A stretch of 35,391 nucleotides of DNA from Lachnospiraceae bacterium (GTDB taxonomy: Bacteria; Bacillota; Clostridia; Lachnospirales; Lachnospiraceae), in contig JAIKXN010000108.1 in the NCBI GenBank assembly GCA_024684055.1, positions 1-35,391 of the forward strand. The letters are read 5' to 3'. The notes beneath the pieces were generated by a model. That model worked only from the letters and a program-made list of their open reading frames with translations, made no database searches and was not told the DNA's origin. Position numbers and translations under genes: made by a program. How positions within the stretch are numbered: the stretch's first letter is position 1; each line of letters opens with the position of its first letter. Below, in pieces: positions 5,535 through 32,933 of the stretch.

Positions 5535-5597
5535 TGATCATTCATCAGGTTATTTATTGATTATTCATCAAGATAATATTTCTGATTATTCATCAAG
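5535..5597 (-). repeat. three copies of the lysC 3' end
   Basis: The last bases of lysC including the stop (minus strand CTTGATGAATAATCA, 5583-5597) are repeated exactly at 5558-5572 and with two changes at 5535-5549. Starts are 25 and 23 bases apart. Each copy contains a stop codon (TAA, TAA, TGA). Confidence 0.9.
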
Positions 5598-6794
5598 TCC
5601 GAAGATGTCATGAATTGCATTTGCTGCTCTGTCTGCATCGTTAACATCGATAAGAACGGTTACTCTGATTTCGGAAGTTGAAATCATCTTGATGTTGATG
5701 TGCTCATTGTAGAGACATTCAAACATCTTTGCTGCAACGCCGGGATTTGACATCATGCCTGCACCAACAATTGAAACCTTGCATACATTCTTTTCCATAT
5801 CGATGTTCTGGTATTTAAGTCTTGCCTTGTTGTCTTCAAGAACCTTGATAGCTTCATCACCGAAGTTTCCGTCAACTGTAAATGAAATATCCTGAGTATT
5901 GTTACGTCCTGTTGACTGAAGAATCATATCCACATTAATATTTGCCTTTGCAAGAGCATCGAATACTCTGAATGCGGTACCGGGCTTGTCCTCAAGACCG
6001 ATGATTGAAATTCTCTCAGCATTTTTATCTACGGCAACGCCGCTAACTAACATTTTTTCCACTTTAACATCCTCCTTAACGACCGTTCCTTCCTCATTTG
6101 TAAGAGATGAACGAACTACCAATGTAACACCGTATTTCTTTGCCATTTCAACGGAACGGTTATGTAATACTCCGGCACCGAGCGTTGCAAGATCAAGCAT
6201 TTCATCATATGTGATCTCTTCAAGTTTTCTTGCCTTGTTTACGATTCTCGGATCGGCTGTGTAAACACCGTCAACATCTGTATATATTTCACACTTGTCT
6301 GCTCTTAATGCGGCAGCAATGGCAACTGCAGTCGTATCCGAACCGCCTCTGCCGAGTGTTGTGTAATCGTCATATTTATTGATACCCTGGAATCCGGTAA
6401 TAATAACTATTTTTCTGCCTTCAAGTTCATGTGTGATCCTTTCGGAATCGATTCTTTTAAGTCTTGCATTACCGTAATTGGATGTGGTATGCATTGAAAC
6501 CTGAAAAGCATTAAGGCTGATGGCGGGAACGCCAAGATTAGCCATAGCCATAGCCATGAGTGAAACACTTGTCTGCTCGCCTACGGTAAGGAGCATGTCA
6601 AGTTCTCTTTTGGATGGGTTGGGATTAATATCTTTTGCTTTTTCGATGAGTTCGTCGGTCATCTTTCCCATTGCGGAAAGAATAACGACAACATCATTGC
6701 CCTTGTTGTATTCTTCAATGCATCGACGGGCTACGTTGTAGATTCTTTCTTTGTTGGCAACCGATGTGCCGCCAAATTTCTTAACTACTAACAT
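5586..6794 (-). CDS. lysC: aspartate kinase
   Basis: Phosphorylates aspartate with ATP, the first step to lysine, threonine and methionine. The 402-residue protein has the N-terminal KFGGTSVA motif (about 6-13), the amino acid kinase domain with GRGGSDTTAVA near 145-155 and TDVDGVYTADPR near 168-179, and two C-terminal ACT domains (from about 265) that bind end-product effectors. The length is that of monofunctional aspartokinases. The start has AGGAGG upstream. It is the last gene of the hom operon, 76 bases after the phosphoglycerate-mutase-like gene. Which amino acid inhibits it cannot be read from the sequence. Its stop region is duplicated downstream. Confidence 0.97.
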   Translation of the reverse strand: MLVVKKFGGTSVANKERIYNVARRCIEEYNKGNDVVVILSAMGKMTDELIEKAKDINPNPSKRELDMLLTVGEQTSVSLMAMAMANLGVPAISLNAFQVSMHTTSNYGNARLKRIDSERITHELEGRKIVIITGFQGINKYDDYTTLGRGGSDTTAVAIAAALRADKCEIYTDVDGVYTADPRIVNKARKLEEITYDEMLDLATLGAGVLHNRSVEMAKKYGVTLVVRSSLTNEEGTVVKEDVKVEKMLVSGVAVDKNAERISIIGLEDKPGTAFRVFDALAKANINVDMILQSTGRNNTQDISFTVDGNFGDEAIKVLEDNKARLKYQNIDMEKNVCKVSIVGAGMMSNPGVAAKMFECLYNEHINIKMISTSEIRVTVLIDVNDADRAANAIHDIFGLDE

Positions 6795-6870
6795 TTCTTC
6801 CTCCTAAAATAAAATATTTCCCCAAAACATCACCATTTTAATTCCGGTTTAAATATTTTTCAACAAAAAA

Positions 6871-7638
6871 CTATTCCGTTTCCAAAAAATGATTCAAAAG
6901 CATGTTTCCTTCATCGAAATAACATCCGGATTCTTTGGCACTTTTCTCGCAATAAAACTGATTGCCTTCAACTTCGAGTCCGGAGTCGTATATAAGATAA
7001 GGAACTGCATCCGACTCGGAAGTTCCTATTCTTACATATGTCGGAAAATATGGCATTACCAGAAGTCTGAATTCCGCATCCCTGCCCTGAATCTCTTCAA
7101 CAAGAGGTCCGACAATGTACGCATCTATATTCTCGATTGCCTTTATCTTCTTTTCTATGCTCTTTGCTACGCTTGCTTCGTTAACCGCTTTAACATGAAT
7201 GATCACAAAATCGTAATCATCATCAAACAATGCCGTAACGGCAGCATCCTTTTTACCCGAATAATTGGTATTAAGTCCGCCTGTCGCTCCGTCGACTTCA
7301 TATACTTTCATATTAACCGCGGCGGCAAAAGCCTTCATCTTTTCATCGACCGTTATAACAGCGCTCTTCTTTCCGGTTTTTGTATAAAAATCTTCAATCT
7401 TCTGTCCTTCTTCCGAAACGGTATTAAAGTCAGAAGAATCATATCCGAATACGGAAAGATTAGCTGATTCAACGTCTATCGGCTTTCCTTTGGGTATGGT
7501 ATGAACCATTCCGATCTCCGACATTCTTGCGAGCGTATCCATGTGAGACGTTTTCGCAACTGCCAGCGGAGTCCTTCCCTTCAGCTCATCCAAAGGTTCA
7601 TCAGACATCCCATCGCAAAGTATGACAACAAATTTCAT
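6871..7638 (-). CDS. degenerate, shortened archaeal-type phosphoglycerate mutase / type-2 homoserine kinase-like protein
   Basis: 255 residues against roughly 400 for the ApgM / proposed alternative homoserine kinase family (alkaline phosphatase superfamily). The N-terminus keeps CDGMSDEP (D9) and SANLSVFGYD (S62). The sequence then jumps almost directly to the C-terminal half (KKSAVITVDEKMK), so the middle part of the family is missing. In the C-terminal half the usual metal ligands are changed: the DEAGH motif reads NEASV (153-157), DH of the DHPTP motif reads YF (197-198), and the following His is S207. Only two of the seven expected ligands remain, so ordinary phosphotransfer is unlikely. 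It lies between hom and lysC in one operon, 40 bases after hom. A regulatory or structural role is inferred. There are no stops or frameshifts, so it looks maintained rather than a pseudogene. Confidence 0.7.
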   Translation of the reverse strand: MKFVVILCDGMSDEPLDELKGRTPLAVAKTSHMDTLARMSEIGMVHTIPKGKPIDVESANLSVFGYDSSDFNTVSEEGQKIEDFYTKTGKKSAVITVDEKMKAFAAAVNMKVYEVDGATGGLNTNYSGKKDAAVTALFDDDYDFVIIHVKAVNEASVAKSIEKKIKAIENIDAYIVGPLVEEIQGRDAEFRLLVMPYFPTYVRIGTSESDAVPYLIYDSGLEVEGNQFYCEKSAKESGCYFDEGNMLLNHFLETE

Positions 7639-7678
7639 TTCCTTATCCTATCCTATACGCACGATTCACACTTCCTGA

Positions 7679-8887
7679 TTAAAGGAAGCGTACAAAGTTA
7701 ACTATCGAGCCTTCGAATCGATTTTTCATTTCATAGAATTTTACTTCGGATACTTTTTCGCTTACAACACCGATCTCATCGTTAAGCGAATCGATAGAAA
7801 CAGTATCCTTCACACCGATGCATTCTGAAATTTTGTTTAAATCTTCCCTTTTTACCCTGATAAAATATTCGAATTTCTTTTTCTCGTCGGGAACGAATTC
7901 AACATCTTCGTCCTTCCAGGGACATTCGATTGTTTTACCTTTATTATTTGCACATTCAACGATATCCGATACTATGGCTGAAGCTGTAGCAAGCTTTCCT
8001 GCGCCCTGACCGTAGAAAAGTGTATCTCCGACCATATTTCCCTTTACCATAATACCGTTAAATACTCCCCTTACGCCGTAAAGGGGGCTGTCTTTGCTTA
8101 CCATGAAAGGTGCCACTATGGCAAGACATTTTCCGTCAATGTCTCTGCTTAAGCCCAAAAGTTTGATCGAACAGTTAAGCTTCTTTGCATATTCAAAATC
8201 ATTTTTACCTATATTCGTAATTCCTTCGGTATGGACATTCTTATAATTAACGGTTTTGCCCATGGCAAGAGAAGAAAGAATCGCAATCTTTCTGCACGCG
8301 TCATGTCCGCATACATCCGCTTCGGGATTCTGCTCTGCATATCCCTTTGCCTGTGCTTCTTTTAAAACCGCATCATATTCGCAGCCTTCTTCATCCATTT
8401 TCGTTAACATATAGTTGGTAGTACCGTTTAAAATACCGGTAATGCCCTCAATACGCTCTGCGCCGAGACAGTCTTTAAGAGGACGCAGAATGGGAATTCC
8501 GCCTCCTACACTTGCTTCAAAAAGATAAGAGCAGTGATTCTCTTTTGCAATCTTTAAAAGCTCCACACCGTATTCGGCAACAACAGCCTTGTTGGATGTG
8601 CAGACACTTACTGAGCGGGAAAGAAGTGCTTTTGTAAATTCGTAAGCTTTTCCGATTCCGCCCATTGCCTCTACCGCTATATCTATTTCGGGATCGTTTT
8701 CAATAATCGAAATATCATGAACCACTTTGTTTTCATTGGGATCTCCGGGGAAATCTCTAAGATCAAGGATATACTTGACTTCCACCTCATCGGAGCATCT
8801 TTCGGAAAGTTCCTTGCAGTTCTTCTCAATAATTTCAGCCACTCCGCTTCCAACGGTACCGTAGCCTAAAAGGGCAACATGTATCAT
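7679..8887 (-). CDS. hom: homoserine dehydrogenase
   Basis: Reduces aspartate semialdehyde to homoserine with NAD(P)H, the branch point to threonine and methionine. The 402 residues contain a Rossmann GYGTVGSG (8-15), SNKAVVAEYG near 97-106, the substrate-domain EASVGGGIPILRPLKD near 124-139, GILNGTTNYML near 147-157 and a C-terminal ACT-like regulatory domain from about 340. The ATG at 8887 has AAAGGAG upstream, and a strong promoter lies at 8931-8959. It is the first gene of hom - mutase-like - lysC; thrB and thrC are not nearby. Threonine feedback through the ACT domain is typical of the family, but no leader attenuator or riboswitch is visible in the short untranslated region. Confidence 0.97.
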   Translation of the reverse strand: MIHVALLGYGTVGSGVAEIIEKNCKELSERCSDEVEVKYILDLRDFPGDPNENKVVHDISIIENDPEIDIAVEAMGGIGKAYEFTKALLSRSVSVCTSNKAVVAEYGVELLKIAKENHCSYLFEASVGGGIPILRPLKDCLGAERIEGITGILNGTTNYMLTKMDEEGCEYDAVLKEAQAKGYAEQNPEADVCGHDACRKIAILSSLAMGKTVNYKNVHTEGITNIGKNDFEYAKKLNCSIKLLGLSRDIDGKCLAIVAPFMVSKDSPLYGVRGVFNGIMVKGNMVGDTLFYGQGAGKLATASAIVSDIVECANNKGKTIECPWKDEDVEFVPDEKKKFEYFIRVKREDLNKISECIGVKDTVSIDSLNDEIGVVSEKVSEVKFYEMKNRFEGSIVNFVRFL

Positions 8888-8930
8888 AACTATCTCCTTT
8901 GGGACAAAATACTGCCAAAATCAACAATGT

Positions 8931-8959
8931 ATTATAACATTAAACTTCTTGTTTGACAA
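8931..8959 (-). promoter_or_regulatory. predicted promoter of the hom operon
   Basis: TTGTCA and TATAAT on the minus strand have a 17-base spacer, with TG one base before the -10 (extended -10). It lies 43 bases before the start codon, leaving too short a leader for a riboswitch. Confidence 0.75.
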
Positions 8960-8965
8960 GTTGAG

Positions 8966-8997
8966 CAGGGAACAATCATTCTCTTTACTATTCCCTG
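8966..8997. repeat. 7-bp inverted repeat between divergent promoters
   Basis: CAGGGAA at 8966-8972 and TTCCCTG at 8991-8997 form a perfect inverted repeat with an 18-base interval. The right arm abuts the -35 of the plus-strand promoter and the left arm is close to the -35 of the hom promoter, so a factor bound here could affect both. No regulator is identified. Confidence 0.4.
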
Positions 8998-9012
8998 TCC
9001 CGTTGATAAAAT
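8984..9012 (+). promoter_or_regulatory. predicted promoter of the DUF6062 gene
   Basis: TTTACT at 8984-8989 and TAAAAT at 9007-9012 have a 17-base spacer, 47 bases before the start codon. Confidence 0.55.
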
Positions 9013-9058
9013 ATATTTAAATTTACAGGTTTCAGAAAATCTTCGGAGGATTTCATAT

Positions 9059-9826
9059 ATGAAAGAGAAGCTTTACACCATTCCCATGAACGATGCCGTT
9101 AACGCCGGCGACGAATGTCCTTTCTGCTTCGTCGAAAGAGACGTCGAACAGGATCTGCTCGATCTGGTGCTCGGTTCAGGTTCATCCTACATGGAAGCAG
9201 ACATGCGTGAAAAGACCGACAAGGCAGGCTTTTGCAGAATGCATTTCAAGAAAATGTTTGACTACGGCAACACGCTCGGAAACGCATGGATTTTAAAAAC
9301 ACATTATATGGAGATGCGTAACCAGATGAAAAAGAGCATGGACTCTTACAAGCCCGGCAAAACAACCATCATGTCAAAGTTTTCAAAGTCTTCCAAAGTT
9401 GAAATGAAAAACTCCGTGGCAGCATGGGTAAAAGAAAAAGAAGAATCATGCTATATATGCAATTCCTTTAAGGAAATGTATGAAAGATATCTCGATACAT
9501 TTTTCGTAATGTATAAAAAAGATGATGAATTCGTAAACAAGATAAAGAATTCAAAAGGTTTCTGTCTTACACATTTCGGCGATCTGTGCGAAGCCGCGGA
9601 AACAAGATTAAACGACAAGCAGAAAGAGGAATTCTTCAACATGCTCTTCCCTCTCATGGAAGAAAACATGAGCCGCCTTCAGGAAGACGTTTCCTGGCTG
9701 ATTGAAAAATACGATTACAGAAACAAAGACGCCGACTGGAAGAATTCAAAAGATGCAATCCAGAGGGGTATGCAGAAATTAAAAGGTTCCTACCCCGCAG
9801 ATCCCGTATATCAGCAGAAAAAATAA
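9059..9826 (+). CDS. DUF6062 family protein with two CxxC/CxxH modules
   Basis: 255 residues with no signal peptide or membrane segment, so cytoplasmic. I recognise it as DUF6062, a family common in gut Clostridia with no known function. It contains two similar modules: C20-x2-C23 followed by GFCRMHF (C59, H62), and C131-x2-C134 followed by GFCLTHF (C169, H172). The spacing between pairs is 36 and 35 residues, so the protein looks like an internal duplication with two C3H metal sites, probably zinc; metal binding is inference. GGAGGA lies nine bases before the ATG. It is a single gene with its own promoter and a terminator at 9935-9974. Its 3' end is repeated just downstream. Confidence 0.75.
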   Translation: MKEKLYTIPMNDAVNAGDECPFCFVERDVEQDLLDLVLGSGSSYMEADMREKTDKAGFCRMHFKKMFDYGNTLGNAWILKTHYMEMRNQMKKSMDSYKPGKTTIMSKFSKSSKVEMKNSVAAWVKEKEESCYICNSFKEMYERYLDTFFVMYKKDDEFVNKIKNSKGFCLTHFGDLCEAAETRLNDKQKEEFFNMLFPLMEENMSRLQEDVSWLIEKYDYRNKDADWKNSKDAIQRGMQKLKGSYPADPVYQQKK

Positions 9827-9867
9827 AACATTTTTCAAATCAAAAAATAAAACCGGCATTTTTCAAA
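9818..9867 (+). repeat. in-frame repeat of the DUF6062 gene end
   Basis: AAAAAATAAAAC at 9818-9829, holding the last codons and TAA stop, recurs at 9842-9853. The following CATTTTTCAAA at 9829-9839 recurs at 9857-9867 after a three-base insertion. The second TAA is 24 bases after the first and in the same frame. Confidence 0.8.
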
Positions 9868-9934
9868 GCTGCCGAAATACACAACCGTATTATCTGATAA
9901 ACAATTGTATTTATAAAAAATATAAAGCCAACAG

Positions 9935-9974
9935 AAAGACCTTTACCGTTTTTGATACGATAAAGGTCTTTTTT
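9935..9974 (+). terminator. terminator after the DUF6062 gene
   Basis: An 11-bp perfect stem (9935-9945 with 9961-9971) and a T-run at 9969-9974. The minus-strand side lacks a clear U-run, so it mainly serves the plus strand. Confidence 0.8.
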
Positions 9975-9993
9975 GCTGCTTTGTATTGAATTT

Positions 9994-10063
9994 GTTGTAT
10001 TTCTGTTTTTGAATTTGTTGTATTTCTGTTTTTTGAATTTGTTGTATTTCTGTTTTTGAATTT
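9994..10063 (-). repeat. three tandem 23-24 bp repeats downstream of the beta-CASP gene
   Basis: Copies at 9994-10016, 10017-10040 and 10041-10063 are identical except for one extra base in a T-run of the middle copy. They begin 40 bases beyond the stop of the minus-strand metallo-hydrolase gene. In another frame they read TEIQQIQK repeats. There are no spacers, so this is not CRISPR. Confidence 0.95.
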
Positions 10064-10102
10064 GCTTTTTCTTTTGTTTTCGATTCAGTTTCGGTTACTG
10101 CT

Positions 10103-11707
10103 TTATCTGTCCCATTTGTCACACAGCGAGTTGATCTGATCCGCAAATTTCGCAAGATCCTTGTTCGTACCGCCCTGATTTCTTTCGATAACCTGTAACA
10201 GTCTGTTTCCTGCCGCAAGGAGTCTCGCGAATACTTCGGTAACTCTCTTGGTGGGATCTTTCTTTTCGACAGGCTTCGGATAAGCTTCGTATACAATCTC
10301 ATTGGCAGCGAGGTCGTAAACGGTTCCGCTGAAAGGTGCATACGCATCAAATCCGTATGAATCTTTAAGACAGTCCGAAAAGATATTACATACGGTGTCT
10401 TCACCGTGTACAATGAATACCTTGTCAGGCTTTTGCTCAAAAGCATTGATCCAGTTAATAAGTCCGCCCTTGTCGGCGTGTCCGCTCATTCCGGCAAGAA
10501 CCTGAATGTTCGCATTGACTTCAATAGGCTCGCCGAAGAGTTTGACTTCATCAACGCCTTCGACAAGTACTCGTCCAAGAGTACCCACTGCCTGATAACC
10601 TACAAAGAGAATCGTACATTCCTCACGCCAGAGGTTATGTTTCAGATGGTGTCTGATACGGCCCGCTTCACACATGCCGGACGCGGAAATGATAACCTTG
10701 GGTTCGGGATCGAAGTTGATCTCTCTGGATTCGTCCGACGTGATCGTAAGTTCGAGTCCCGGGAAAACCAGCGGATTGATACCCTGCCTTACAAGTTCCA
10801 TCGCCTGATCGGAGAAGCAATTATAAATGTTCTTCTGGAAAACTTCCGTTGCTTCAACGGCAAGAGGCGAATCGACGAACACTTTGAATCCGTCATGACC
10901 TTTAATCATTTCGTCCGCTTTGATCTGTCTTAAGAAATAAAGCATTTCCTGTGTTCTGCCGACAGCAAACGAAGGAATGACCACATTACCTCCCCTGTCA
11001 AAAGTTTCCTGAATTATATGCGCAAGTTCTTTTACATAATCGGGAGTATCGTTTGAATGGAATCTGTCGCCGTATGTGGATTCCATGACAACATAATCTG
11101 CGGTAGCCGTGTATGAAGGATCTTTAAGAATCGGATCGTTTACGTTACCCAAGTCACCCGAAAATACGATCTTCTTGGTAACTTCATCCTCGGTAATCCA
11201 GATTTCGATACTCGATGAGCCCAAAAGATGTCCGACATCGGTAAATCTGAACTGAATTCCGTCGCATAAATCATACTGAGCGTTATATGCAAAAGGCAGA
11301 ATTCTCTTGATCACGCCTTCCGCGTCCTCCATCGTATAAAGAGGTTTTATATCAAAATCTTTCGCACCTCTCTTTGCCTTACGGGCTTTCCATTCTGCTT
11401 CCTGCATCTGAATGTGTGCGGAATCTCTTAACATTATGCTGCAAAGATCCCTGGTAGCTTCAGTAGCAATAACCTTGCCTTTAAATCCTTTTGCATACAA
11501 AAGAGGCAGAAGTCCCGTATGGTCTATATGAGCATGCGTAATAAACACATAATCAATGTCGCTCTCGGCACAGGGTAACTCTGTATTCTCGTAAACATTT
11601 ACGCCCTGTTCCATACCATAATCAACCAGAATCCACTTGCCGCATGCCTCAAGACAATGGCAGCTTCCGGTTACTTCGTGATCCGCCCCGATAAAATGAA
11701 GTCTCAT
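10103..11707 (-). CDS. beta-CASP metallo-beta-lactamase fold RNA-processing-type hydrolase
   Basis: 534 residues, like the CPSF73/Ysh1-type family of bacterial RNA-specific metallo-hydrolases. The zinc motif THAHIDH lies at 57-63, DVGHLLGS near 157-164 and FSGDLGN near 182-188. The beta-CASP insert starts at MESTYGDR, and later motifs include PSFAVGRTQE, the SASGMCEAGR segment and SGHADKGGL. It lacks the long C-terminal domain of RNase J, so RNase J itself is unlikely; endo- or exonuclease activity on RNA is inferred from the family. Its promoter is at 11770-11798, and GGGGGG lies about twelve bases before the ATG. A single-base frame change near the stop would add about 55 hydrophilic residues from the repeats downstream. 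Confidence 0.9.
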   Translation of the reverse strand: MRLHFIGADHEVTGSCHCLEACGKWILVDYGMEQGVNVYENTELPCAESDIDYVFITHAHIDHTGLLPLLYAKGFKGKVIATEATRDLCSIMLRDSAHIQMQEAEWKARKAKRGAKDFDIKPLYTMEDAEGVIKRILPFAYNAQYDLCDGIQFRFTDVGHLLGSSSIEIWITEDEVTKKIVFSGDLGNVNDPILKDPSYTATADYVVMESTYGDRFHSNDTPDYVKELAHIIQETFDRGGNVVIPSFAVGRTQEMLYFLRQIKADEMIKGHDGFKVFVDSPLAVEATEVFQKNIYNCFSDQAMELVRQGINPLVFPGLELTITSDESREINFDPEPKVIISASGMCEAGRIRHHLKHNLWREECTILFVGYQAVGTLGRVLVEGVDEVKLFGEPIEVNANIQVLAGMSGHADKGGLINWINAFEQKPDKVFIVHGEDTVCNIFSDCLKDSYGFDAYAPFSGTVYDLAANEIVYEAYPKPVEKKDPTKRVTEVFARLLAAGNRLLQVIERNQGGTNKDLAKFADQINSLCDKWDR

Positions 11708-11769
11708 ATTTAATTTTGCCCCCCTTGATTTACTTTTAGTGAAAATCTTCCAGCAAATTAATTATATAT

Positions 11770-11798
11770 ATTTTACCAAATTTTATGTATTTTTACAA
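11770..11798 (-). promoter_or_regulatory. predicted promoter of the beta-CASP hydrolase
   Basis: TTGTAA and TAAAAT on the minus strand with a 17-base spacer, about 62 bases before the start codon. Confidence 0.6.
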
Positions 11799-11832
11799 CC
11801 TTTGTGTCCCTCAAAAAGAGCCTTATGCAAAT

Positions 11833-11853
11833 AAAAAATCCGCCGAAGCGAAT
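11833..11853 (-). terminator. terminator of the EamA-dtd-5-FCL operon
   Basis: On the minus strand a 6-bp stem (one G-T pair) closes on a TTCG tetraloop and is followed by six Ts. It lies just upstream of the next gene's promoter. Confidence 0.75.
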
Positions 11854-12070
11854 TTGTTAAGTTTAAAATTAATTTTCAGGCACTTTTCCTTAAATCAGGC
11901 ATATCTTTATCAAATATGTAAATTTTGACCGTTTTAGTCATTGCCAATAAAAGCCATCATACGACCACAGTCTCATCCATCCGAGCCCGGATTAATCATC
12001 TGACTGTCGTATCATTAATCAGACTTTAATCTGTTTTCAGGATATTACATCTCAGGTGGAATTATATCCA
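11854..12070 (-). other. 217-bp untranslated tail of the 5-FCL gene with a degenerate copy of its 3' end
   Basis: Together with the terminator and promoter to its left this fills the longest gene-free stretch (11708-12070). At 11954-11985 the minus strand reads like the end of the 5-FCL gene (12068-12098): the gene ends M-D-E-V-V-V-G-stop and the copy reads M-D-E-T-V-V-V-stop, with about 24 of 33 bases matching. Short GATTAAT-containing repeats lie between them. No ORF with a ribosome binding site and no RNA gene was recognised. Confidence 0.55.
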
Positions 12071-12613
12071 TTATCCGACCACTACTTCATCCATCGGAAT
12101 GTCAAATTCATCATGCATGATATCATTCACATAACACTGCTTAAAACATACTCCGACTTTTTTGATACAGGCATCTTTATGAACCGAAAAGAATCTGTCA
12201 TAATATCCTTTTCCGTAGCCGATCCTGTAGCCGGATTCATCAAAGGCAACTCCCGGAACAACGGCAAGATATTTTCTCTCTTTTCCGAATTTGATTTCCT
12301 TTAAACCTTCAACAGGCTCCCTCACATTAAAATTTCCCGTCTCGAGTTCATTTATGTTCTTAACTTCATAAAACGTCATCTCATCCCCGGAAGTCTTCGG
12401 AAAATAAAATGAATGTTTTGAATCGGGATCAAATATACCGAATACATCTGCTTCGTATTCAAGCGGCGCATACAAAAGAATCCCGTCATATTTGTCTTTT
12501 GCGATAAGATCGATAAGTTTTTCCCTTATACGCTCTGAGGCCTCTTGGGCTTCTTCAAACGGTATGTTTTTCCGGATTCCGATATATTCTTTTCTTAACG
12601 CTTTTTTATCCAT
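12071..12613 (-). CDS. 5-formyltetrahydrofolate cyclo-ligase
   Basis: Converts 5-formyl-THF to 5,10-methenyl-THF with ATP, clearing an inhibitory folate. The 180 residues show the basic N-terminal KKALRKEYIGIRK helix and the family signature PGVAFDESGYRIGYGKGYYDRFF near 129-151. The ATG at 12613 has AGGTAGAT upstream, inside a duplicated segment. An additional upstream copy of this ribosome binding site and start (ATG at 12662) opens only a five-codon frame because one A is missing. The gene lies directly after dtd in a probable EamA-dtd-5-FCL operon. Confidence 0.93.
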   Translation of the reverse strand: MDKKALRKEYIGIRKNIPFEEAQEASERIREKLIDLIAKDKYDGILLYAPLEYEADVFGIFDPDSKHSFYFPKTSGDEMTFYEVKNINELETGNFNVREPVEGLKEIKFGKERKYLAVVPGVAFDESGYRIGYGKGYYDRFFSVHKDACIKKVGVCFKQCYVNDIMHDEFDIPMDEVVVG

Positions 12614-12692
12614 ATATCTACCTATAAATCATTCGAATCAAGACTTAACGCTTTTTATCCATATATCTACCTATAATTCATTCGAATCAAGA
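12594..12692 (-). repeat. tandem 50/49-bp duplication of the dtd end / 5-FCL start junction
   Basis: 12594-12643 and 12644-12692 are adjacent near-identical copies, differing by one base in a T-run and a small change in the stop region. Each carries the last dtd codons and stop, the ribosome binding site and the first 5-FCL codons. The copy next to dtd has the true dtd stop but a frameshifted 5-FCL start (MDKKR then stop); the other has the true 5-FCL start. Confidence 0.95.
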
Positions 12693-13117
12693 ACGATCGT
12701 AAACGGTCCGTCATTAAGAAGTTCGACTTTCATATCCGCACCGAATATACCCTTTTCAACATGTTTTCCGGCTTTTTGGCACTCATCGATAATATATTCA
12801 TATAATTCGTTAGCCATGTCAGGCGCTCCGGCATTTGTAAAAGAAGGTCTGTGGCCTTTCTTACAGTCTGCATATAAAGTAAACTGCGAGATGAGAAGAA
12901 GCGCTCCATCGACATCCGAAAGCGACAGATTGGTCTTTCCGTTTTCGTCCTCGAATATTCTGAGTCCAAGCATCTTCTTTATCATTTTATCAGCAGTTTC
13001 CTTTGTATCGTCGTGAGTCACTCCGATCAATACAAGGAATCCTTTTTCTATCTGCCCCGTAATTTTCGAATCCACGGTTACGGATGCGTGTGATACTCTC
13101 TGAATTACAAATTTCAT
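12671..13117 (-). CDS. dtd: D-aminoacyl-tRNA deacylase
   Basis: Hydrolyses D-amino acids from mischarged tRNAs, a proofreading enzyme of translation. The 148-residue length is normal. The N-terminal [16 protein letters not shown] is typical, the catalytic [17 protein letters not shown] lies near 76-92, and the cross-subunit Gly-Pro motif is NDGPFTI near 135-141. It follows the EamA gene by 18 bases. Its last codons and stop are duplicated downstream together with the next gene's start. Confidence 0.97.
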
Positions 13118-13135
13118 GATTAAGCCTCTTTCATC

Positions 13136-13978: not shown

Positions 13979-14073
13979 CTTCGTAAGTCCTTTTAAATAA
14001 TTACATTTTGCTAATATATGATCAACCCGACACCGCTGATTTTGCTTCAGCTGACATCCCCGGATCAATGCAT

Positions 14074-14105: not shown

Positions 14106-14119
14106 CCTGATATTTAATT

Positions 14120-24867: not shown

Positions 24868-24897
24868 GATACGCTCCTTACCAAACCGAAAAGATGA

Positions 24898-26415
24898 TTA
24901 TTCTTCGGTCTTTTCTTCTGCTTTTTTAGCTCTGGTCTTCTTGGGTTTAGCTTCGCCGTCAGCAGTTTCTTCTTTTGCTGCCTTCTTGGGCTTAGCTTCT
25001 CCGTCTTCTGCTTCCTTTGCTGCTTTCTTGGGTTTAGCTTCGCCGTCTGTTGCTTCTTTTGCTGCTTTCTTGGGTTTAGCTTCACCGTCTGCTGCTTCTT
25101 CCTTGGCTGCCTTCTTTGCCTTTGCTGCTTTTTCCTTAGCGTTGTCTCTTATGAAATCAAGAGCTTTCTGCATAACGATATCTTTCTTGAAAAGATCTTC
25201 TCTTTCTCCGACAAATGTCTCTTTGATCTTATCTTTTTCCATATGATATTCTTCTGCGATCTTATTGATTTCAGCTTCAACATCGCTTTCGGTAGCTTCG
25301 ATCTTTTCAGCCTTTGCAACTGCTTCGAGAACAAGCTGAGTCTTGATCTTCTGTTCTGCCTGAGGCTTGATCTGGTCCATCATAGTTTCGGCATTCATGC
25401 CTGTATACTTGAAATACTGATCGATGTTCATTCCCTGATACTTAAGTCTCTGCGCAAACTCATCAAGCATTTCTCTCTGAGTTGTCTTGAGCATCATTTC
25501 GGGAATATCGATTTCGGAATCTTCGATGATTGCGTTTACTGCAGCGTCTTCCTTCTGCTTCTTTGCACCGTCAGCCTTCTTGTCAGAAAGATTCTTCTTA
25601 ACTGATTCCTTGTATTCTGCGAATGTATCATAGCTTGAAACATCGCTTGCGAAATCGTCATCAAGTTCAGCAAGCTGCTTCTCTTTGATCTCGTGAATCT
25701 TTACCTTGAATACAGCGGGCTTTCCTGCAAGTTCTGCTGCCTGGTAATTCTCGGGGAAAGTAACGTTAACGTCAAATTCGTCATCCTTGTTCTTTCCTAC
25801 GATCTGATCTTCAAAAGTATCTATAAAGGAATGAGAACCGATTTCAAGATTGTAGTTCTCACCTTTTCCGCCTTCAAAAGCAACGCCGTCAACAAATCCT
25901 TCGAAATCGATGGTAACCGTATCGCCCTGCTTAACTGCTCTGTCAACAGCAACGATTCTTGCAGCGTTCTGTCTTTCTTTTTCGATAGCTTCACTGATCT
26001 CGTCCTCAGTAACTTCGGTCTCAATCTTTTCAACTTCAACACCTTTATATTTGCCAAGTTTGATTTCAGGCTTAAGTGCTACTTCTGCACTGAATACGAA
26101 AGGCTTTCCGGCTTCCATATCAACCACATCGATCTTGGGTGCGGAAGCAATTTCGATTTCCTTAATTGCTTCATCATAAGCTTTCTCATATGCGTCGGGA
26201 ATAATGATATTGGCAGCATCTTCATAGAAAACTTCCTTGCCGTACATTTTCTCAACAACTTTTCTGGGAACCTTTCCTGCACGGAATCCGGGAACGGAAA
26301 TTCTCTTCTTGTTTCTCTGATATGCTTTCTCGCAAGCCGCCTCAAACTCTTCCGCGCTTACGTCAATGATAAGCTTTGCCATACTGCCTTCAAGCTTTTC
26401 AATCTTAAATCCCAT
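24898..26415 (-). CDS. tig: trigger factor with a repetitive Ala/Lys/Glu tail
   Basis: Ribosome-bound chaperone with prolyl isomerase fold. From ATG 26415 it has 505 residues; a TTG 21 bases earlier lies before the AAAGGAG ribosome binding site and is not used. The ribosome-docking motif is GFRAGKVPRKV near 43-53, the FKBP-like domain covers about 150-240 (GDTVTIDFEGF, FPENY), and the helical C-domain runs to about 425. The last 80 residues are an unusual tail with four 14-15 residue repeats (AKE-x-DGEAKPKKA) and TRAKKAEEKTEE at the end. Usual length is about 430, so the tail is an addition. It is first in the tig-clpP-clpX-ysxC operon. Confidence 0.95.
   Translation of the reverse strand: MGFKIEKLEGSMAKLIIDVSAEEFEAACEKAYQRNKKRISVPGFRAGKVPRKVVEKMYGKEVFYEDAANIIIPDAYEKAYDEAIKEIEIASAPKIDVVDMEAGKPFVFSAEVALKPEIKLGKYKGVEVEKIETEVTEDEISEAIEKERQNAARIVAVDRAVKQGDTVTIDFEGFVDGVAFEGGKGENYNLEIGSHSFIDTFEDQIVGKNKDDEFDVNVTFPENYQAAELAGKPAVFKVKIHEIKEKQLAELDDDFASDVSSYDTFAEYKESVKKNLSDKKADGAKKQKEDAAVNAIIEDSEIDIPEMMLKTTQREMLDEFAQRLKYQGMNIDQYFKYTGMNAETMMDQIKPQAEQKIKTQLVLEAVAKAEKIEATESDVEAEINKIAEEYHMEKDKIKETFVGEREDLFKKDIVMQKALDFIRDNAKEKAAKAKKAAKEEAADGEAKPKKAAKEATDGEAKPKKAAKEAEDGEAKPKKAAKEETADGEAKPKKTRAKKAEEKTEE
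24934..25107 (-). repeat. four tandem repeats encoding the trigger factor tail
   Basis: Units of 15, 14, 14 and 15 codons, each ending DGEAKPKKA or DGEAKPKKT. All are in frame. Small unit differences (AKEEAA, AKEAT, AKEAE, AKEETA) suggest expansion by slippage followed by drift. Confidence 0.9.
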
Positions 26416-26464
26416 TTTATATAAATCTCCTTTCAAAAGTGTGATAATCCACAGTCAATTGATA

Positions 26465-26493
26465 ATTATATCATAGTCAGGTATATTTGTAAA
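26465..26493 (-). promoter_or_regulatory. predicted promoter of the tig-clpP-clpX-ysxC operon
   Basis: TTTACA and TATAAT on the minus strand with a 17-base spacer, 50 bases before the tig start. No CtsR- or CIRCE-like operator was recognised. Confidence 0.75.
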
Positions 26494-26504
26494 AGAAAAA
26501 TTGC

Positions 26505-27056
26505 TTAATACTGCTTGTATACGATAGCTTTAAGTAAATCTTCGGCAGTTTTTTCATCAGTGAGCGTTTCAATGATTTTTGCGGCAAAAGCTATTGATGT
26601 TCCCATGCCTCTGGATGTGATGATATTTCCGTCTTTTACGACTTCTTCATCGGGAACGGAAGCTCCTTCAAGTTCACTCTCAAGCGAAGGATAGCATACA
26701 GCGGTCTTTTCGTTAAGATATCCCCTGTGTCCGAAAATCGTGGGTGCAGCACAGATGGCGCAGATTAGTTTTCCCTTGATATAAAAATCATCGAGTTTGC
26801 TCATCAGATACTGATTGGCTTCGAGATTCTTTGTTCCGGGATTTCCGCCGGGAAGGATCATACACTCGTATTCGTTAAAATCAATCTCGGAAACGAGATG
26901 ATCCGCTTTGACTCTGATTCCGTGCGAGCCCGTGGTTTCAATTTCATCGCCGGTCGAAATAATGTCGCATGTTATTCTCGCTCTTCGAAGCATATCCACA
27001 ACGGTAAGCGCTTCTATTTCCTCATATCCGTCTGCCAAAAAGATTGCTGTTTTCAT
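26505..27056 (-). CDS. DJ-1/PfpI family protein
   Basis: 183 residues of the DJ-1/ThiJ/YajL branch, which includes proposed deglycases and redox-sensing chaperones. The N-terminal FLADGYEEIEA (with the conserved Glu) and the nucleophile-elbow cysteine C102 in AICAAPTIFG are present. No membrane segment. AGGAGG is upstream of the ATG. It is probably monocistronic; the tig promoter follows its stop. Automatic names such as 4-methyl-5-thiazole phosphate synthesis protein should not be taken literally, as no thiamine gene is nearby. Confidence 0.9.
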   Translation of the reverse strand: MKTAIFLADGYEEIEALTVVDMLRRARITCDIISTGDEIETTGSHGIRVKADHLVSEIDFNEYECMILPGGNPGTKNLEANQYLMSKLDDFYIKGKLICAICAAPTIFGHRGYLNEKTAVCYPSLESELEGASVPDEEVVKDGNIITSRGMGTSIAFAAKIIETLTDEKTAEDLLKAIVYKQY

Positions 27057-27122
27057 ACATCTCCTCCTGTTTTCCTTAAAACAAAGTCATTTCCCTGTTA
27101 TTTTATTCATTCTCCTGAAACA

Positions 27123-27152
27123 ATACTATTTAATCGTAATTCGTAAACTCAA
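27123..27152 (-). promoter_or_regulatory. possible promoter of the DJ-1 family gene
   Basis: TTGAGT and TAGTAT on the minus strand with an 18-base spacer, about 65 bases before the start codon. A modest match. Confidence 0.4.
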
Positions 27153-27201
27153 AACTTTCAACATTTCTTTCGTTTTTTCACAAAAAGTTTTAATTTGTCC
27201 G

Positions 27202-27241
27202 AAAAAATACCCTCCTTCCCATTCGTACGGGAAAGAGGGTA
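27202..27241 (-). terminator. terminator of the solute-binding protein gene
   Basis: A 13-bp stem with one mismatch (27208-27220 with 27229-27241), an eight-base loop and six Ts on the minus strand, about 35 bases beyond the stop codon. Confidence 0.88.
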
Positions 27242-27274
27242 CTCATTGCCTTCATAAAAGGTTATTATATTTTA

Positions 27275-29773
27275 TTACTTCTTTTCGTTGATATAAATCT
27301 GAAGTCTGGACTGAATAACTCCCGCAACTTCTTTTGCAGTTCTCTGTCCCTGGAAGAACCCCTGAGTTTCCTCATCAACGATCTTGTTCAGTTCTTCGTC
27401 CCATGTATAGATATTTTTGACTGAAGTTACGAAGCTCTTAAGTTCTGCTGCTTCTTCTTTTGTAATAAGCTTGATCTCAACTTCTTCATCCATAAGCCAG
27501 ATCGTTTCGGGCATCTCTACTTCCTTACCGTTCTCATCCACATATGTTTCGTGCTTCATGGATTTTTCAATCATCTTATCCATTTCGCTTTCAACAGAAG
27601 GGATCGACCATGTCTGCTCTTCGTAATATTCAGGCTGGAAGCATGAATTGATAAATTCCCATGCTGCTTCAGGGTTCTTGCATTTGCTTGAAATACCCAT
27701 GGGTGCATCGATATTGAGAGACGCACCGAGTGTTCCGTTAATGGGAATGCCTGCGAGAACAACTTCGTCATCACCGAATCTGTACTTCTTGTTCCAGTTA
27801 TAATCTTTGAAATTTGAAACCCATGCATTTGTTAACAAAGCATTGTCGTTTCTGTAAACGTACATGTAATTCATGTAGTAGTTATCATCGAAATCATCTT
27901 CGGAATACTCAGCGGGATATGTATTTGCATATTCGAGGATCTTGATGAATTCATCCGAATCAAATGAACATTTACCCGTCTGAGGATTAAGGAAAGCATC
28001 CATTCCGAGGCTCATAAATGTATTAAGCACGCCTGATTTTGTTGATGTTTCAAATGCCTTTTTGCCTGTCTGCTGTTCCCATGCGATAACATCGTCGATA
28101 GTCATGTTTTCTTTGTAGAATTTCTTCTTAAGCATAACTGCTTCAACGCTGAATGTCGGATAAATACAATATAATTTGTCATCTCTTGCAAAAACAGTCT
28201 GTGCATTTTCAACAAGGTCCTCTTTCTTTATGCCGTTACCGTTTGCCATAAAAGGTGAAAGATCTGTGAATACACCCTTATCGATAAGGTTCTGAACGTC
28301 ATATGCTTCGGGGACGATGATATCGGGTGAACTTCCGCTTGTAAGGTCGGAATTGAATCTCTTTGAACCGCCCATCCAGTCATCGGGTGTTGAAAACTCC
28401 GAATAATCAATAAGTTTGATTCTGTATTTCTCGTTATTCTTGTTAAAGTCAAGGATCTGCTTTGATACGGAATACGAACCGTAAACGGTACCAAGTGTAA
28501 GGATTTCCTTATCAATTACCTGGTCTGCGGGAACTTTTTCATACAAAACAACGCTCGCACCGTTTTCTCCGGGTACAATAAAGTGTTCAGCATCGATAAA
28601 TACCGCTTCACCATAAATACCGTCCGGATCGATATCCGAATCGTAGAAGTTAACTATTTCAACTGCCTTTTTGTCGCCTGTATTAAAAGCGTATACCGAA
28701 GCATTTGTTCTGTAATAATAGTCATATCCGCTTCCGTTTATAACGCTTCTTCCGTTAAGCATCTCAGAAACACCGGATTCTTCTTTGCCGTTTCCCTTTG
28801 CATCGATGATCATAGCGCTTGAAGAATATGTTTCGGCTGAATAGTGATCGGCAACAAGAACAAACTGATCTTTTGAATTGATCATCATGGCATTTATGTA
28901 TGAGTCATTCTCAAGCTTGTATGTTCCCGAAGGATTTAATTCCTTGTCGAATATCTGCACTGAACTATCGGAAACAACGAAAGTATTTCCCTGTGAATCG
29001 GTGCATGCTCCTCTTACATAGAAATAATCGGAATTGTCAGCTGCGATATTCGTTTCTTTTATCACATCGCCTGCGGGTGATAATTTTTTGAGTTTGAATG
29101 TTTCCTGATAGCTTTCGGGATCCGTAACGTTAAATACAAGGTAGTAATTTCCTTCGGAATCCACGTTAATCTTGCTCGCAAGATATTCGGAAGAATCCCA
29201 ATCCTTCTCAACTGTCTGAATATCGTCGGCATTCGAGAAATTGATCAGTAAAAGTGAACTCTTGGGAGGCTGGTAATCATAATTGTCTTCAGGGAAGAAA
29301 ACGCTGGGATCCTGAGCAGGAGCATCTCCGTCAACAATGTCTTCCGTATCGTCTGCTTCTCCGGTTTCACCTGTTGTCTCTGTATCTCCTTCTGCGGTTT
29401 TCTCTGCGTCCGCATCCTCTGTATCTGCAGGTTCATCATTTACATCACCGTCAACAGCAGGTTCGTCATATGTTTCATAATCACCTATGAATCCTTCGCC
29501 TTCAGGATAATCATAAACCATTGCACCCATATAGATTCTTCCGTTGGCACTGTTAAAACTGTCAATATAATCAATTCTGTCAGTCAGCTGGAAAGTTGTT
29601 GATTCCTTAAAAATCGCATCTTTATTTACTTTGTCGGAAATAACAACGTTACTGCTGCCGCCCTGATTTTTTCCGTTCAGCAAGTTCGAGAAGAAATCCT
29701 TGGGTTTGCAGCAAACCAGGGAAAGCATCATGACCGAACATAATGAAACGGAAATTACTTTCTTAAAATTCAT
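27275..29773 (-). CDS. large solute-binding lipoprotein with an extra N-terminal domain
   Basis: 832 residues. The N-terminus MNFKKVISVSLCSVMMLSLVCC is a lipoprotein signal with lipidation at C21 or C22. A D/E/T-rich linker lies near 95-145. About 150-420 holds repeated short beta segments (NYYLVFNV, NTFVVSD, QFVLVADHY) that look like a beta-propeller. The C-terminal part from about 425 looks like a family-1 extracellular solute-binding protein (PDIIVPEAYDVQNLIDKGVFTDLSPF, then APMGISSKCKNPEAAWEFI), which usually delivers sugars to ABC transporters. No permease or ATPase gene is nearby. AAGGAG precedes the ATG. Substrate unknown. Confidence 0.83.
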   Translation of the reverse strand: MNFKKVISVSLCSVMMLSLVCCKPKDFFSNLLNGKNQGGSSNVVISDKVNKDAIFKESTTFQLTDRIDYIDSFNSANGRIYMGAMVYDYPEGEGFIGDYETYDEPAVDGDVNDEPADTEDADAEKTAEGDTETTGETGEADDTEDIVDGDAPAQDPSVFFPEDNYDYQPPKSSLLLINFSNADDIQTVEKDWDSSEYLASKINVDSEGNYYLVFNVTDPESYQETFKLKKLSPAGDVIKETNIAADNSDYFYVRGACTDSQGNTFVVSDSSVQIFDKELNPSGTYKLENDSYINAMMINSKDQFVLVADHYSAETYSSSAMIIDAKGNGKEESGVSEMLNGRSVINGSGYDYYYRTNASVYAFNTGDKKAVEIVNFYDSDIDPDGIYGEAVFIDAEHFIVPGENGASVVLYEKVPADQVIDKEILTLGTVYGSYSVSKQILDFNKNNEKYRIKLIDYSEFSTPDDWMGGSKRFNSDLTSGSSPDIIVPEAYDVQNLIDKGVFTDLSPFMANGNGIKKEDLVENAQTVFARDDKLYCIYPTFSVEAVMLKKKFYKENMTIDDVIAWEQQTGKKAFETSTKSGVLNTFMSLGMDAFLNPQTGKCSFDSDEFIKILEYANTYPAEYSEDDFDDNYYMNYMYVYRNDNALLTNAWVSNFKDYNWNKKYRFGDDEVVLAGIPINGTLGASLNIDAPMGISSKCKNPEAAWEFINSCFQPEYYEEQTWSIPSVESEMDKMIEKSMKHETYVDENGKEVEMPETIWLMDEEVEIKLITKEEAAELKSFVTSVKNIYTWDEELNKIVDEETQGFFQGQRTAKEVAGVIQSRLQIYINEKK

Positions 29774-29807
29774 GTTTAAAAATTCTCCTTCCTAATCCTA
29801 AAAAAAC

Positions 29808-29827
29808 ATTGATAATTATATATCAAT
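29808..29827. promoter_or_regulatory. palindrome centred on a -10 box, upstream of the solute-binding gene
   Basis: ATTGATA and TATCAAT form perfect 7-bp arms around TATAAT (29815-29820, minus strand), 41 bases before the start codon. The -35 is weak (TATACT). The arrangement suits a repressor site over the -10. Confidence 0.45.
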
Positions 29828-29872
29828 AATTTTGAAAAGTATACTTGTTTTTTTCCAAAAGACCTTTTTTTG

Positions 29873-30637
29873 TCACTTTTTATCTTTAATGATAATTTTT
29901 CTCATTGCCTCTACAGCAATTTTTACAGCAGCCGATGTGTCTTCGCTCATCTGCTGATCAAGGCCTGCTTTTTCACGTTCCTGATTCCATATAACGTGGA
30001 AACACGATCCGCATCTGCACTTTAATGCGCTCGATACAACGAACAGCGTTGACGATTCCATTTCGGATGCCTTTACGCCGAGCCTCTTCCAAGCTTCCCA
30101 CTTTTGAAGAAGCTCATATGAAACCGGCATTCTTTCAGGCGAATGCTGTCCGTAAAAAGAATCCTTGCACTGAACCACTCCGACATGGGTTTTCTTTCCC
30201 ATTTCTTCGGAAGCTTCCCTTAACGCAAGAGCTATGTCAAGATCTGCAACCGCCGGAAATTCTATGGGTGCATATTCAACGGAAGTATGTTCATATCTGA
30301 TGGCTCCCGTAGCCACAACAATATCGCCTGATTTGACATCAAGATCGATTCCGCCGCACGTTCCGGTTCTGATAAAAGTATCGGCACCGAGATTGTGAAG
30401 TTCCTCAACCGCTATCGAAGTGGAAGGACCGCCTATACCCGTCGAGCAGGCTGTCACTTTAACACCTTCCAGATATCCGGTAAAAACATTGAACTCGCGA
30501 TTATACGCAATCTGTTTTGCATCATCGAACAATGCCGCTATTGCCGGTATTCTTCCGGGATCTCCTGCGAGAATACAATATTTACCGATATCTCCTTCAA
30601 CGCAATGAATGTGAAACTGTTTTTCTAACTCCTGCAT
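29873..30637 (-). CDS. udp: uridine phosphorylase
   Basis: Splits uridine with phosphate to uracil and ribose 1-phosphate in pyrimidine salvage. From ATG 30637, which has GGGGAGG six bases upstream, it has 254 residues; the longer reading to 30676 includes the ribosome binding site and is rejected. Motifs of the nucleoside phosphorylase family: AGDPGRI near 24-30, the [16 protein letters not shown] phosphate-binding segment near 73-88, RTGTCGGID near 97-105 and a late EMESSTLF substrate motif. Specificity for uridine rather than a purine is inferred from overall similarity. Confidence 0.85.
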
Positions 30638-30806
30638 GGTAACCTCCCCATATTTACGATTGCATTCTTTTTTCAAAACTATTCAATTAATTGATTTTTA
30701 AACAAACCGACTACCTAATCATTTTATAACAAAAATCCAAATAATTACAGATTTCTTTTATTTATAATAAAATCATAATAATTTCATAATAATTTAAAAG
30801 AAGCGT
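30638..30806 (-). other. AT-rich spacer upstream of udp
   Basis: Together with the histidine kinase terminator and 3' repeats this fills the gene-free stretch 30638-30983. It is very AT-rich, with two adjacent AAATTATTATG units on the minus strand (about 30773-30794) and TATAAA-type -10 candidates near 30725, but no convincing -35. No ORF or RNA gene was seen. Confidence 0.5.
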
Positions 30807-30839
30807 AAAAAGCAAAAGCGAATGCCGGGAAGCATCCGC
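30807..30839 (-). terminator. terminator of the two-component system genes
   Basis: GCGGATGC pairs with GCATTCGC on the minus strand (one G-T pair; arms 30832-30839 and 30818-30825), with a six-base loop and TTTTGCTTTTT after it. About 145 bases beyond the kinase stop. Confidence 0.8.
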
Positions 30840-30915
30840 ATATTGCCTGTCTCTGCTCTTTCGTGTTTTAAATATTCAGTCAAAAATCAACCTGCTTATT
30901 ATGACATTAATAAGA

Positions 30916-30994
30916 AAATTTAGTCGAAATAAATCCTGTCTAAGTAAATCCGGTCAAAGAAATTTTTAAGTAAATTTGTCGAATTATATCTGGT
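30916..30994 (-). repeat. degenerate copies of the histidine kinase 3' end
   Basis: The kinase end with its stop (30972-30994) is echoed at 30916-30939, about 19 of 23 bases plus a one-base gap. A third partial unit with GTAAATCCGGTC lies near 30944-30955. Copies are more diverged than at lysC. Confidence 0.6.
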
Positions 30995-32750
30995 TTATAT
31001 AAACTTCAAATCTCTTCTCTTTGCCATCCTTAAATTCTATGGTCGCCTTAATCTTATGAAGATCAAAAATACTCTTTGCTATGGCGAGTCCTATGCCGCT
31101 TCCCTTTTCATTGCTTCTCGCATCATCTCCTTTAATGAACGATTCCCAGAGTTTATCGGGCTTCTTATCAGGCAATGAATCGACCGAGTTTGATATGACG
31201 AATCCTTTTTTATTGCCTTCGACTTTAATCTCTCCGCTGTCGTTTACATATTTGACCGAATTTGAAACAAGATTCTCAAGTGCTTTTTCCATTAAATCTT
31301 TATTTGCCTTTTTCTCAAAACTTCCTGTGACTTCAAATTTAACATTTCTTTCTTCAAGCAAAGGAATATATTTCTCAAAAAGATTTTCAGTCATGCCGAC
31401 AAGATTGACATTTTCTTTTCTTTCGACATATTTTTTTTCCTTAAGTTTCAAAAGTTCGAAATTACCGTTAATGAGCCTGTCCATATAATCGGCGCTTTCA
31501 AGTATCGCATCCGCATATATTTCTTTTTTGTCTTCATTAAGATTTTCTTTAAGACTCTCGGCGTATCCGCGAAGTGCTGTAAGAGGCGACTTTAAATCAT
31601 GTGAAATCGAGTCGGTCAGCGTTTTCCTGAATTCTTCTTTTTCTCTTTTCGAAATCTGTATCAGACTGATTACAACAGAGATTGCGGCACTCAGAAGAAG
31701 CGTAAAAGCATACAATGCAAGGATTATTTTTCTTGTAAAAATATTCTGTTCTTCAGTCCAGTAATTTGATTTAAAATAACTTTCCAGTACATAGTTTTTT
31801 ACCACGATCTCGCCGTTTTCGCTCTTTGAAAGCATAAACGGATTTCTTATAATGATCATCGTATTTACATCCTTAAAGAAATATCTCGGTTTTTCAATAT
31901 AACGATTCACAAGAATCGGAAATTCATAAGTATGTGATTCTCCGTAAGAAACATCGTAGTCCGGATTACCTTTGCCCGCTTCCGGAAAATCGCTTACATC
32001 ATATATGCCTCCACTTAAATACACTGCCCCTTCATTATCTTTATTTTCGATTACTTCCATTTCATCGATGCCCTCGATATTATCATAATCTCTTGTATAA
32101 AAAATCGGACCCCATGTTTCATATTTATCTTTATCCGTAACAACAGTATTGACGTCAGTATAACCGGGTCTGTAATAAGCAACCATTTCAAGAGGATAAA
32201 ACGTATTGTCTTTTACACAATACTTGTTAACCTGGTAATACAGATGATTCTCATCTCCCTCATCCGCAATAGAAAGATATTCTTCTCTTGTATCTTTCAT
32301 CCATTTTAAAAGATATTCATCATCGCTTTCATAAAGGAGTGCGGGATTGTTCGTATCATCTGCGAATCCTCCGCTTTCTTTCGGCAGGATAAAAAAACAT
32401 TTCTCCTTTGAATCAGCCAGCACTTCCCCTGTTTTCCTGTCGGTCATTTTAATATATAACCCCCGGGGTTCAGGCATTTCCGACGACGAAGCCAGCAGAA
32501 GATCTTCATAATTTTTGAAATCCGCCGTAATCTCATCTTTAGTCTCATATTCCTGCAATTTGATAATAAGGTCCTTGTTCTTTTCTTCGATATATCTGTA
32601 ATAATCATCGGCCCAGTTCCTATAGTCGCTCTTAAGATATATCAAAGTCCCGGTTCCAAATATTAATGTGACGATCAGGGTTTGAATTATCAGTCTTTTT
32701 ATTATCAGACCTTTTTTATTAAACCTTTTCTTTTCGGTATTCTTCATCAT
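30984..32750 (-). CDS. two-component sensor histidine kinase
   Basis: 588 residues. One transmembrane helix near 19-37, a large extracellular sensor region to about 340, a second helix near 345-367, then the kinase core: H-box SISHDLKSPLTALRG with H384, N-box ALENLVSNSVKY near 490-501, and G2 GSGIGLA at 550-556. The G1 box is weak (FVISNSVDSLP) and no clear HAMP domain separates the helix from the H-box. The sensor region is not a family I recognise. The start has GGAGAATGGAGAC upstream; ATG at 32750 or the adjacent ATG at 32747 may be used. It follows the response regulator gene by a repeat-filled 154-base spacer. Confidence 0.92.
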   Translation of the reverse strand: MMKNTEKKRFNKKGLIIKRLIIQTLIVTLIFGTGTLIYLKSDYRNWADDYYRYIEEKNKDLIIKLQEYETKDEITADFKNYEDLLLASSSEMPEPRGLYIKMTDRKTGEVLADSKEKCFFILPKESGGFADDTNNPALLYESDDEYLLKWMKDTREEYLSIADEGDENHLYYQVNKYCVKDNTFYPLEMVAYYRPGYTDVNTVVTDKDKYETWGPIFYTRDYDNIEGIDEMEVIENKDNEGAVYLSGGIYDVSDFPEAGKGNPDYDVSYGESHTYEFPILVNRYIEKPRYFFKDVNTMIIIRNPFMLSKSENGEIVVKNYVLESYFKSNYWTEEQNIFTRKIILALYAFTLLLSAAISVVISLIQISKREKEEFRKTLTDSISHDLKSPLTALRGYAESLKENLNEDKKEIYADAILESADYMDRLINGNFELLKLKEKKYVERKENVNLVGMTENLFEKYIPLLEERNVKFEVTGSFEKKANKDLMEKALENLVSNSVKYVNDSGEIKVEGNKKGFVISNSVDSLPDKKPDKLWESFIKGDDARSNEKGSGIGLAIAKSIFDLHKIKATIEFKDGKEKRFEVYINQI

Positions 32751-32761
32751 GTCTCCATTCT

Positions 32762-32933
32762 CCGTTTGTCATAAACACTCATTGGTTCAGCCGGCTTATA
32801 TCCGTTTTTCATAAGAGTACATTTGTTCAACCGACTTATATCCGTTTGTTATCAGCATTATTTTTCCGTTTGTCATAAGTGTTTATTTATTCAACAACTT
32901 ATGTTTATTCAACCAGCTTATAACCCTTTGACA
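32762..32933 (-). repeat. degenerate repeats of the response regulator 3' end filling the spacer
   Basis: The response regulator ends (minus strand) TCAAAGGGTTATAAG then CTGGTTGAATAAA. Related units, about 40 bp apart, lie near 32832-32859 (about 22 of 28 bases match) and 32793-32820, with truncated units at 32862-32880 and at 32762-32775, the last running into the kinase ribosome binding site. A short TTGTTGAATAAA copy lies at about 32886-32897. Confidence 0.75.

Follow-up and report, generated by a model that had tools for sequence, protein, structure and literature searches.

The closest described parallels to the repeats considered here come from Borg elements and from several bacteria; in Borgs, repeat regions that start inside the end of an open reading frame (ORF) have already been published, and their tandem repeats comprise many unrelated units in spacers, with fast turnover and A enrichment (PMC9879509). 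In the M. tuberculosis complex, the array in the rnc-fpg1 spacer, of the mycobacterial interspersed repetitive unit/variable-number tandem repeat (MIRU/VNTR) type, consists of spacer direct repeats of tens of bases, present in one lineage and missing from relatives (PMC2734929). The TAACTGA repeats of Beggiatoaceae are intergenic direct repeats, some lying over the upstream stop codon (PMC4679880), and Portiera has lineage-specific spacer repeats beside genes under purifying selection (PMC7821994). The subject here is a set of tandem repeats found at gene ends and in spacers of a 35,391-nucleotide stretch (the window, contig C61, JAIKXN010000108.1) of G000, the metagenome-assembled draft genome of a rumen Lachnospiraceae bacterium (GCA_024684055.1; 3.04 Mb, 264 contigs, estimated contamination 3.5%). 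A preliminary description of this DNA had proposed that gene 3' ends are copied into the adjoining spacer by a genome-wide process acting at gene ends, and that no described element fits.

The comparison also brings out differences. Borg units are perfect, whereas the G000 copies are mostly drifted (identity 0.72 to 1.00) and lie on a bacterial chromosome; Borg coding units are divisible by three and 14–38% of the intergenic ones are, which may be set beside 14/37 for the non-coding arrays of G000 (PMC9879509). Beggiatoaceae carry one heptamer at many loci, whereas in G000 nearly each locus has its own unit (PMC4679880). Portiera has lost or disrupted a proofreading gene and has greatly enlarged spacers, the repeat accumulation being discussed together with loss of dnaQ, whereas in G000 the five repair genes searched are present, dnaQ not having been searched (PMC7821994). 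What G000 carries is not an element but a class of tandem repeats, and the Borg ORF-end repeats are already in print (PMC9879509); the G000 repeats belong to a known kind, unusually frequent in this lineage. Among the papers listed by searches of the open-licence literature, no further report of gene-end copies in bacterial spacers was found beyond the systems named.

Copies of gene tails were scored by aligning the last 50 bases of a gene to at most 200 bases of its downstream spacer. Across 40 stretches of G000, window included (21 of 61 were left out as mostly masked), with a cut-off score of at least 13 and spacers swapped between genes as the control, 10/243 gene ends carry a copy against a mean of 1.2, and 8/220 do so beyond the window. 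Other genomes give far fewer: 1/285 in G022, 0/160 in G001, 0/51 in G014, 2/59 in G021 and 1/37 in G007, with 0/80 in near and 1/196 in far named loci. Pooled, the comparison sets reach 5/868, a figure in which some DNA is counted twice (L031, L033, L034 and L096 overlap sampled contigs of G021, G007, G014 and G022). The excess of G000 over these sets has p 0.0002, or p 0.001 with the window removed, and is specific to G000 among the genomes compared; a genome-wide, family-independent occurrence accordingly stands for sampled G000, while copies are rare elsewhere. The proposed 5'-end control is less decisive: gene starts reach the cut-off in 4/237 cases (0.4 with swapped spacers) and inner coding segments in 1/295 (0 swapped), so that the surplus of tail over head copies is not clear (p 0.17). 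Genes were called with a simple purpose-made finder whose starts are less certain than its stops, which weakens this control.

The gene-end copies belong to a wider class, namely tandem arrays in spacers. A scan for periods of 12–150 bp yields 27 arrays lying within the spacers of G000, whereas 10 shuffles average 0.8 and reach 3 at most. These 27 lie in 52.7 kb of spacer, compared with 29 in the 161.7 kb of the comparison sets, where some DNA is again counted twice (p 0.00013), making spacer arrays about threefold denser in G000. Chance similarity in AT-rich spacers was considered and is rejected by the shuffles and the swapped spacers. Most non-coding periods in G000 fall between 20 and 65 bp (31/37 arrays), and copy identity runs from 0.72 to 1.00, a spread that fits repeated formation and decay; 6/37 arrays round to 1.00. 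On the gene strand of codirectional G000 spacers, the A content is 0.42 within arrays and 0.36 outside, with hardly any enrichment in G022 (0.36 within, 0.35 outside).

The periods of these arrays follow a sharp rule. Within coding sequence every period is divisible by three (G000 22/22, G022 31/31, G001 29/29), whereas outside genes this holds for 14/37 arrays in G000, 7/14 in G022 and 1/4 in G001. Because coding periods are all multiples of three and non-coding ones are not, the arrays point to frame-blind duplication under purifying selection. The same figures speak against backup stop codons, one of the purposes suggested in the preliminary description, as non-coding periods have no frame preference.

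The best explanation, and a likely one, is that short tandem duplications, probably produced by slippage or illegitimate recombination, arise blind to frame and are then filtered by selection. It builds on the observed tandem structure, excess over chance, frame rule, placement in G000 and absence from most relatives examined. The source would be slippage during replication, or illegitimate recombination at very short direct repeats, acting without regard to gene borders; within genes only multiples of three would survive, and within spacers any length. A duplication starting in the last codons would be harmless, with the first copy keeping the gene and its stop codon while the extra copy enters the spacer; one across a start codon would place a second start upstream and may be less tolerated. 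Copies would later diverge, expand or contract by units, and fade, and the elevation in G000 could stem from a higher duplication rate or from weaker purging. Slippage, already among the options of the preliminary description, is the favoured reading, although it is inferred rather than observed. In a single example judged by eye, the RR unit of G021 (RR, response regulator) lies between two near-identical heptamers, AAAAGGA at the end of the coding sequence and AAACGGA ahead of the following gene, the arrangement that such a slip would be expected to leave.

The position of arrays relative to gene borders bears on whether a special process at gene ends is required. Of the 35 G000 arrays that touch spacers with known flanks, 24 lie wholly inside, while 7 extend over a 3' end only, 2 over a 5' end only and 2 over both; for these four classes a neutral model, in which segments are duplicated at random places given present spacer lengths, expects 22.8, 5.4, 5.5 and 1.4. 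Crossing of 3' ends (9 observed, 6.8 expected) is thus close to random placement, and the special process envisaged in the preliminary description finds no clear support here, nor in the rates of tail and head copies given above, which are not clearly different.

Several observations nevertheless weigh against duplication blind to gene borders. In G022, the model expects 4.8 of the 11 arrays inside spacers and 6.2 across a border, whereas 10 lie inside and 1 crosses (p 0.0017), and in G001 4/4 lie inside (2.1 expected) and 0/4 cross (about 1.8 expected). Where spacers are short the model may expect too many crossings, and its match in G000 may hide a lean toward gene ends; because the same model fails in G022, the fit in G000 is weaker support than it appears alone. 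Arrays in codirectional spacers favour the 3' half (19, against 7 in the 5' half; p 0.029), and arrays occur in 6/19 convergent spacers against 25/177 codirectional ones (p 0.09), with 3/18 for divergent spacers. The arrays at RR, L120 and L181 were counted as inside, but fainter similarity reaches the coding ends; these extensions would raise the 3' count, and 5' ends were judged without equal leniency. At the tail-test cut-off, inner coding segments of G022 score in 5/404 cases (0.4 swapped) and are commoner than its gene ends (1/285), so that at this threshold such copies do not single out gene ends. Finally, mutS, mutL, recJ, polA and xseA are all present in G000 and supply no reason for its elevation.

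The two leans are what would be expected if gene 3' ends were a mutational hotspot at which transcription termination or collisions pause forks and seed duplications, and border-crossing arrays are more frequent in G000 (11/35) than in the other five genomes together (2/19), though with p 0.11; G021 contributes 1/3 and G007 0/1, and G014 is without arrays. Such a hotspot is regarded as unlikely, as 3'-end crossing in G000 is not above neutral placement, tails do not clearly exceed heads, and the same lean would follow from selection acting on promoters and ribosome sites. Constraint on 5' regions would explain both the 3'-half and the convergent bias under duplication filtered by selection.

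Within the window, tails were compared with 400 dinucleotide shuffles (lowest attainable p = 0.0025) for the 23 gene ends followed by 35 or more bases of spacer, and gene families were assigned by Pfam; the features are collected in the table. Six genes had been described as followed by repeats of their ends. Those of lysC, dtd and RR are firm, that of the 5-formyltetrahydrofolate cyclo-ligase (5-FCL) gene is marginal given 23 tests, and the tails of the histidine kinase (HK) gene (score 9.5, p 0.077) and of the DUF6062 gene (an A-rich match; score 9, p 0.10) have no copy above chance in the shuffles.

Table. Repeats and associated genes in the window (positions of the whole stretch).
Feature	Position	Strand	Basis
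Tandem array at the lysC end, 25-bp unit, 2.8 copies	5531..5597	-	Tail score 12, p 0.005
Aspartate kinase gene (lysC)	5586..6794	-	Pfam AA_kinase + ACT
Tandem array of 23-24 bp, convergent spacer between the DUF6062 and beta-CASP hydrolase genes	9980..10080	.	Tandem scan
5-FCL gene end and weak copy 114 bp off, 74%	11946..12098	.	Score 11.5, p 0.0125
5-FCL gene	12071..12613	-	Pfam 5-FTHF_cyc-lig
Tandem duplication, 49 bp, 2.0 copies: dtd end, spacer and 5-FCL start	12594..12692	-	Tail score 19.5, p 0.0025
Five-codon frame MDKKR plus stop, from the upstream copy of the 5-FCL start	12645..12662	-	Sequence reading
dtd (D-Tyr-tRNA deacylase)	12671..13117	-	Pfam Tyr_Deacylase
Trigger factor C-terminal tandem repeat, 42-45 bp (coding counterpart)	24937..25116	-	Tandem scan and Pfam
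Drifted 40-bp units filling the RR-HK spacer, starting in the RR gene end	32761..32933	-	Score 13.5, p 0.0025
RR gene	32905..33582	-	Pfam Response_reg + Trans_reg_C

The copies do not end with the stop codon but continue into the spacer. In the lysC array the first unit starts in the last codons, and the array stops before a terminator-like hairpin (judged by eye). The dtd unit is a copy of the dtd/5-FCL junction, since the start of the 5-FCL gene lies in the unit; the upstream copy of that start lacks one A of the genuine one, and the 5' match spans 20 against 19 bases. The RR units are strongly drifted and run as far as the HK gene. The array between the DUF6062 and beta-CASP hydrolase genes is clear and strong, yet it copies the end of neither gene.

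Comparison with relatives indicates how these arrays came and went. The nearest named lysC loci come from Lachnospiraceae genomes, most of them assembled from metagenomes of the rumen or other gut material, and the isolate G41 is one of them. Close relatives' lysC terminates at the same place as the window gene, whose own end is the first repeat copy, and more generally the gene-proximal copy matches the relatives' gene ends. Among 79 relatives' loci that extend 60 bases or more beyond the gene, one has a lysC tail copy (L082, Eubacterium sp., with its own unit), and seven have downstream arrays of score at least 12, two starting at the gene end (L082 and L044) and five farther down. The tandem copies in L082 (lysC at 3001-4209; score 19) are independent of those in the window, the array of L044, another Lachnospiraceae genome, starts at the lysC stop codon, and a downstream array in L036 contains a stretch that by eye resembles the lysC end. 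The 49-bp dtd duplication occurs in 0/25 relatives' dtd loci, L011 having a weak 12-base match only, and at the gene of L125 a copy is present in G000 and none in G022. At RR, G021 has three 40-bp units co-linear with the G000 array, which carries an extra stretch beside the gene end, and the array has gained or lost units between the species; nine other RR relatives examined have none. Of 28 gene pairs adjacent in the window, 24 are adjacent in G021, and of those 24 spacers three hold a window array, only the RR one being found in G021. Since the lysC and dtd copies are absent from most relatives while the RR array is common to G000 and G021, the copies seem to differ in age: they would arise at various times, can persist beyond the divergence of two species, and are lost by drift.

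The retention of a co-linear RR-HK array in two species could also be read as a sign of function, with the copies serving as backup stop codons, 3' untranslated region (UTR) elements or operon gene spacing, and in M. tuberculosis the transcription of fpg1 is described as varying with the length of the upstream repeat array (PMC2734929). This reading is quite improbable, given that frame preference is missing outside genes, that the lysC and dtd copies are absent from the relatives examined bar one independent copy, and that the RR units are strongly drifted and without counterpart in the nine other relatives. An artefact of assembly or binning would be conceivable for a genome in 264 contigs with 3.5% estimated contamination and two recJ-like genes; it is very improbable, as most copies differ by substitutions (6/37 arrays round to 1.00), which is not a mis-assembly product, the arrays lie on many contigs, and the RR array recurs in the separately assembled G021.

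Across 31 genomes of the genus, searches covered the repair genes mutS, mutL, recJ, polA and xseA. All five have a match above the family cut-off in G000, and loss of a repair gene is rejected on this basis for these five, dnaQ and others not having been searched. A change in replication or repair particular to this lineage, combining a several-fold rise in duplication with a true mutational preference for transcription-unit ends so that 3' regions are continually renewed from gene tails, is improbable. A second recJ-like gene, a frame of 601 aa just under the family cut-off, lies on C238 of G000, the other being on C17; it is either a real extra copy or on a contaminating contig. MutL frames are about 890–1040 aa long in one clade of the genus (C236 of G000 and relatives) and about 640–760 aa in other members; in the long frames the ATPase part and the C-terminal part are matched separately, with a long insert between them.

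A dispersed repeat family was considered as a source of the arrays and is rejected, as array sequences resemble other parts of the sampled G000 stretches only locally or weakly, except a 63-bp family in L122. There, one unit family occurs in two arrays, at 652-796 and 4876-5301, the other arrays being single-locus. The sequence GGGGACGG is present in spacer repeats of two genomes, in L238 (3' of the DUF6062 gene) and in L110:16521-16572, and from this shared stretch the repeats of L238 and L110 are perhaps one dispersed family.

The emphasis on gene ends is most likely due to selection rather than to a special device, and random tandem duplication with selection would offer a natural account of how gene-tail copies come to occupy the spacers behind genes. 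A rumen lineage whose spacer arrays stand about threefold above the comparison sets, with the five searched repair genes present, may serve as a test case for rates of short duplication in bacteria.

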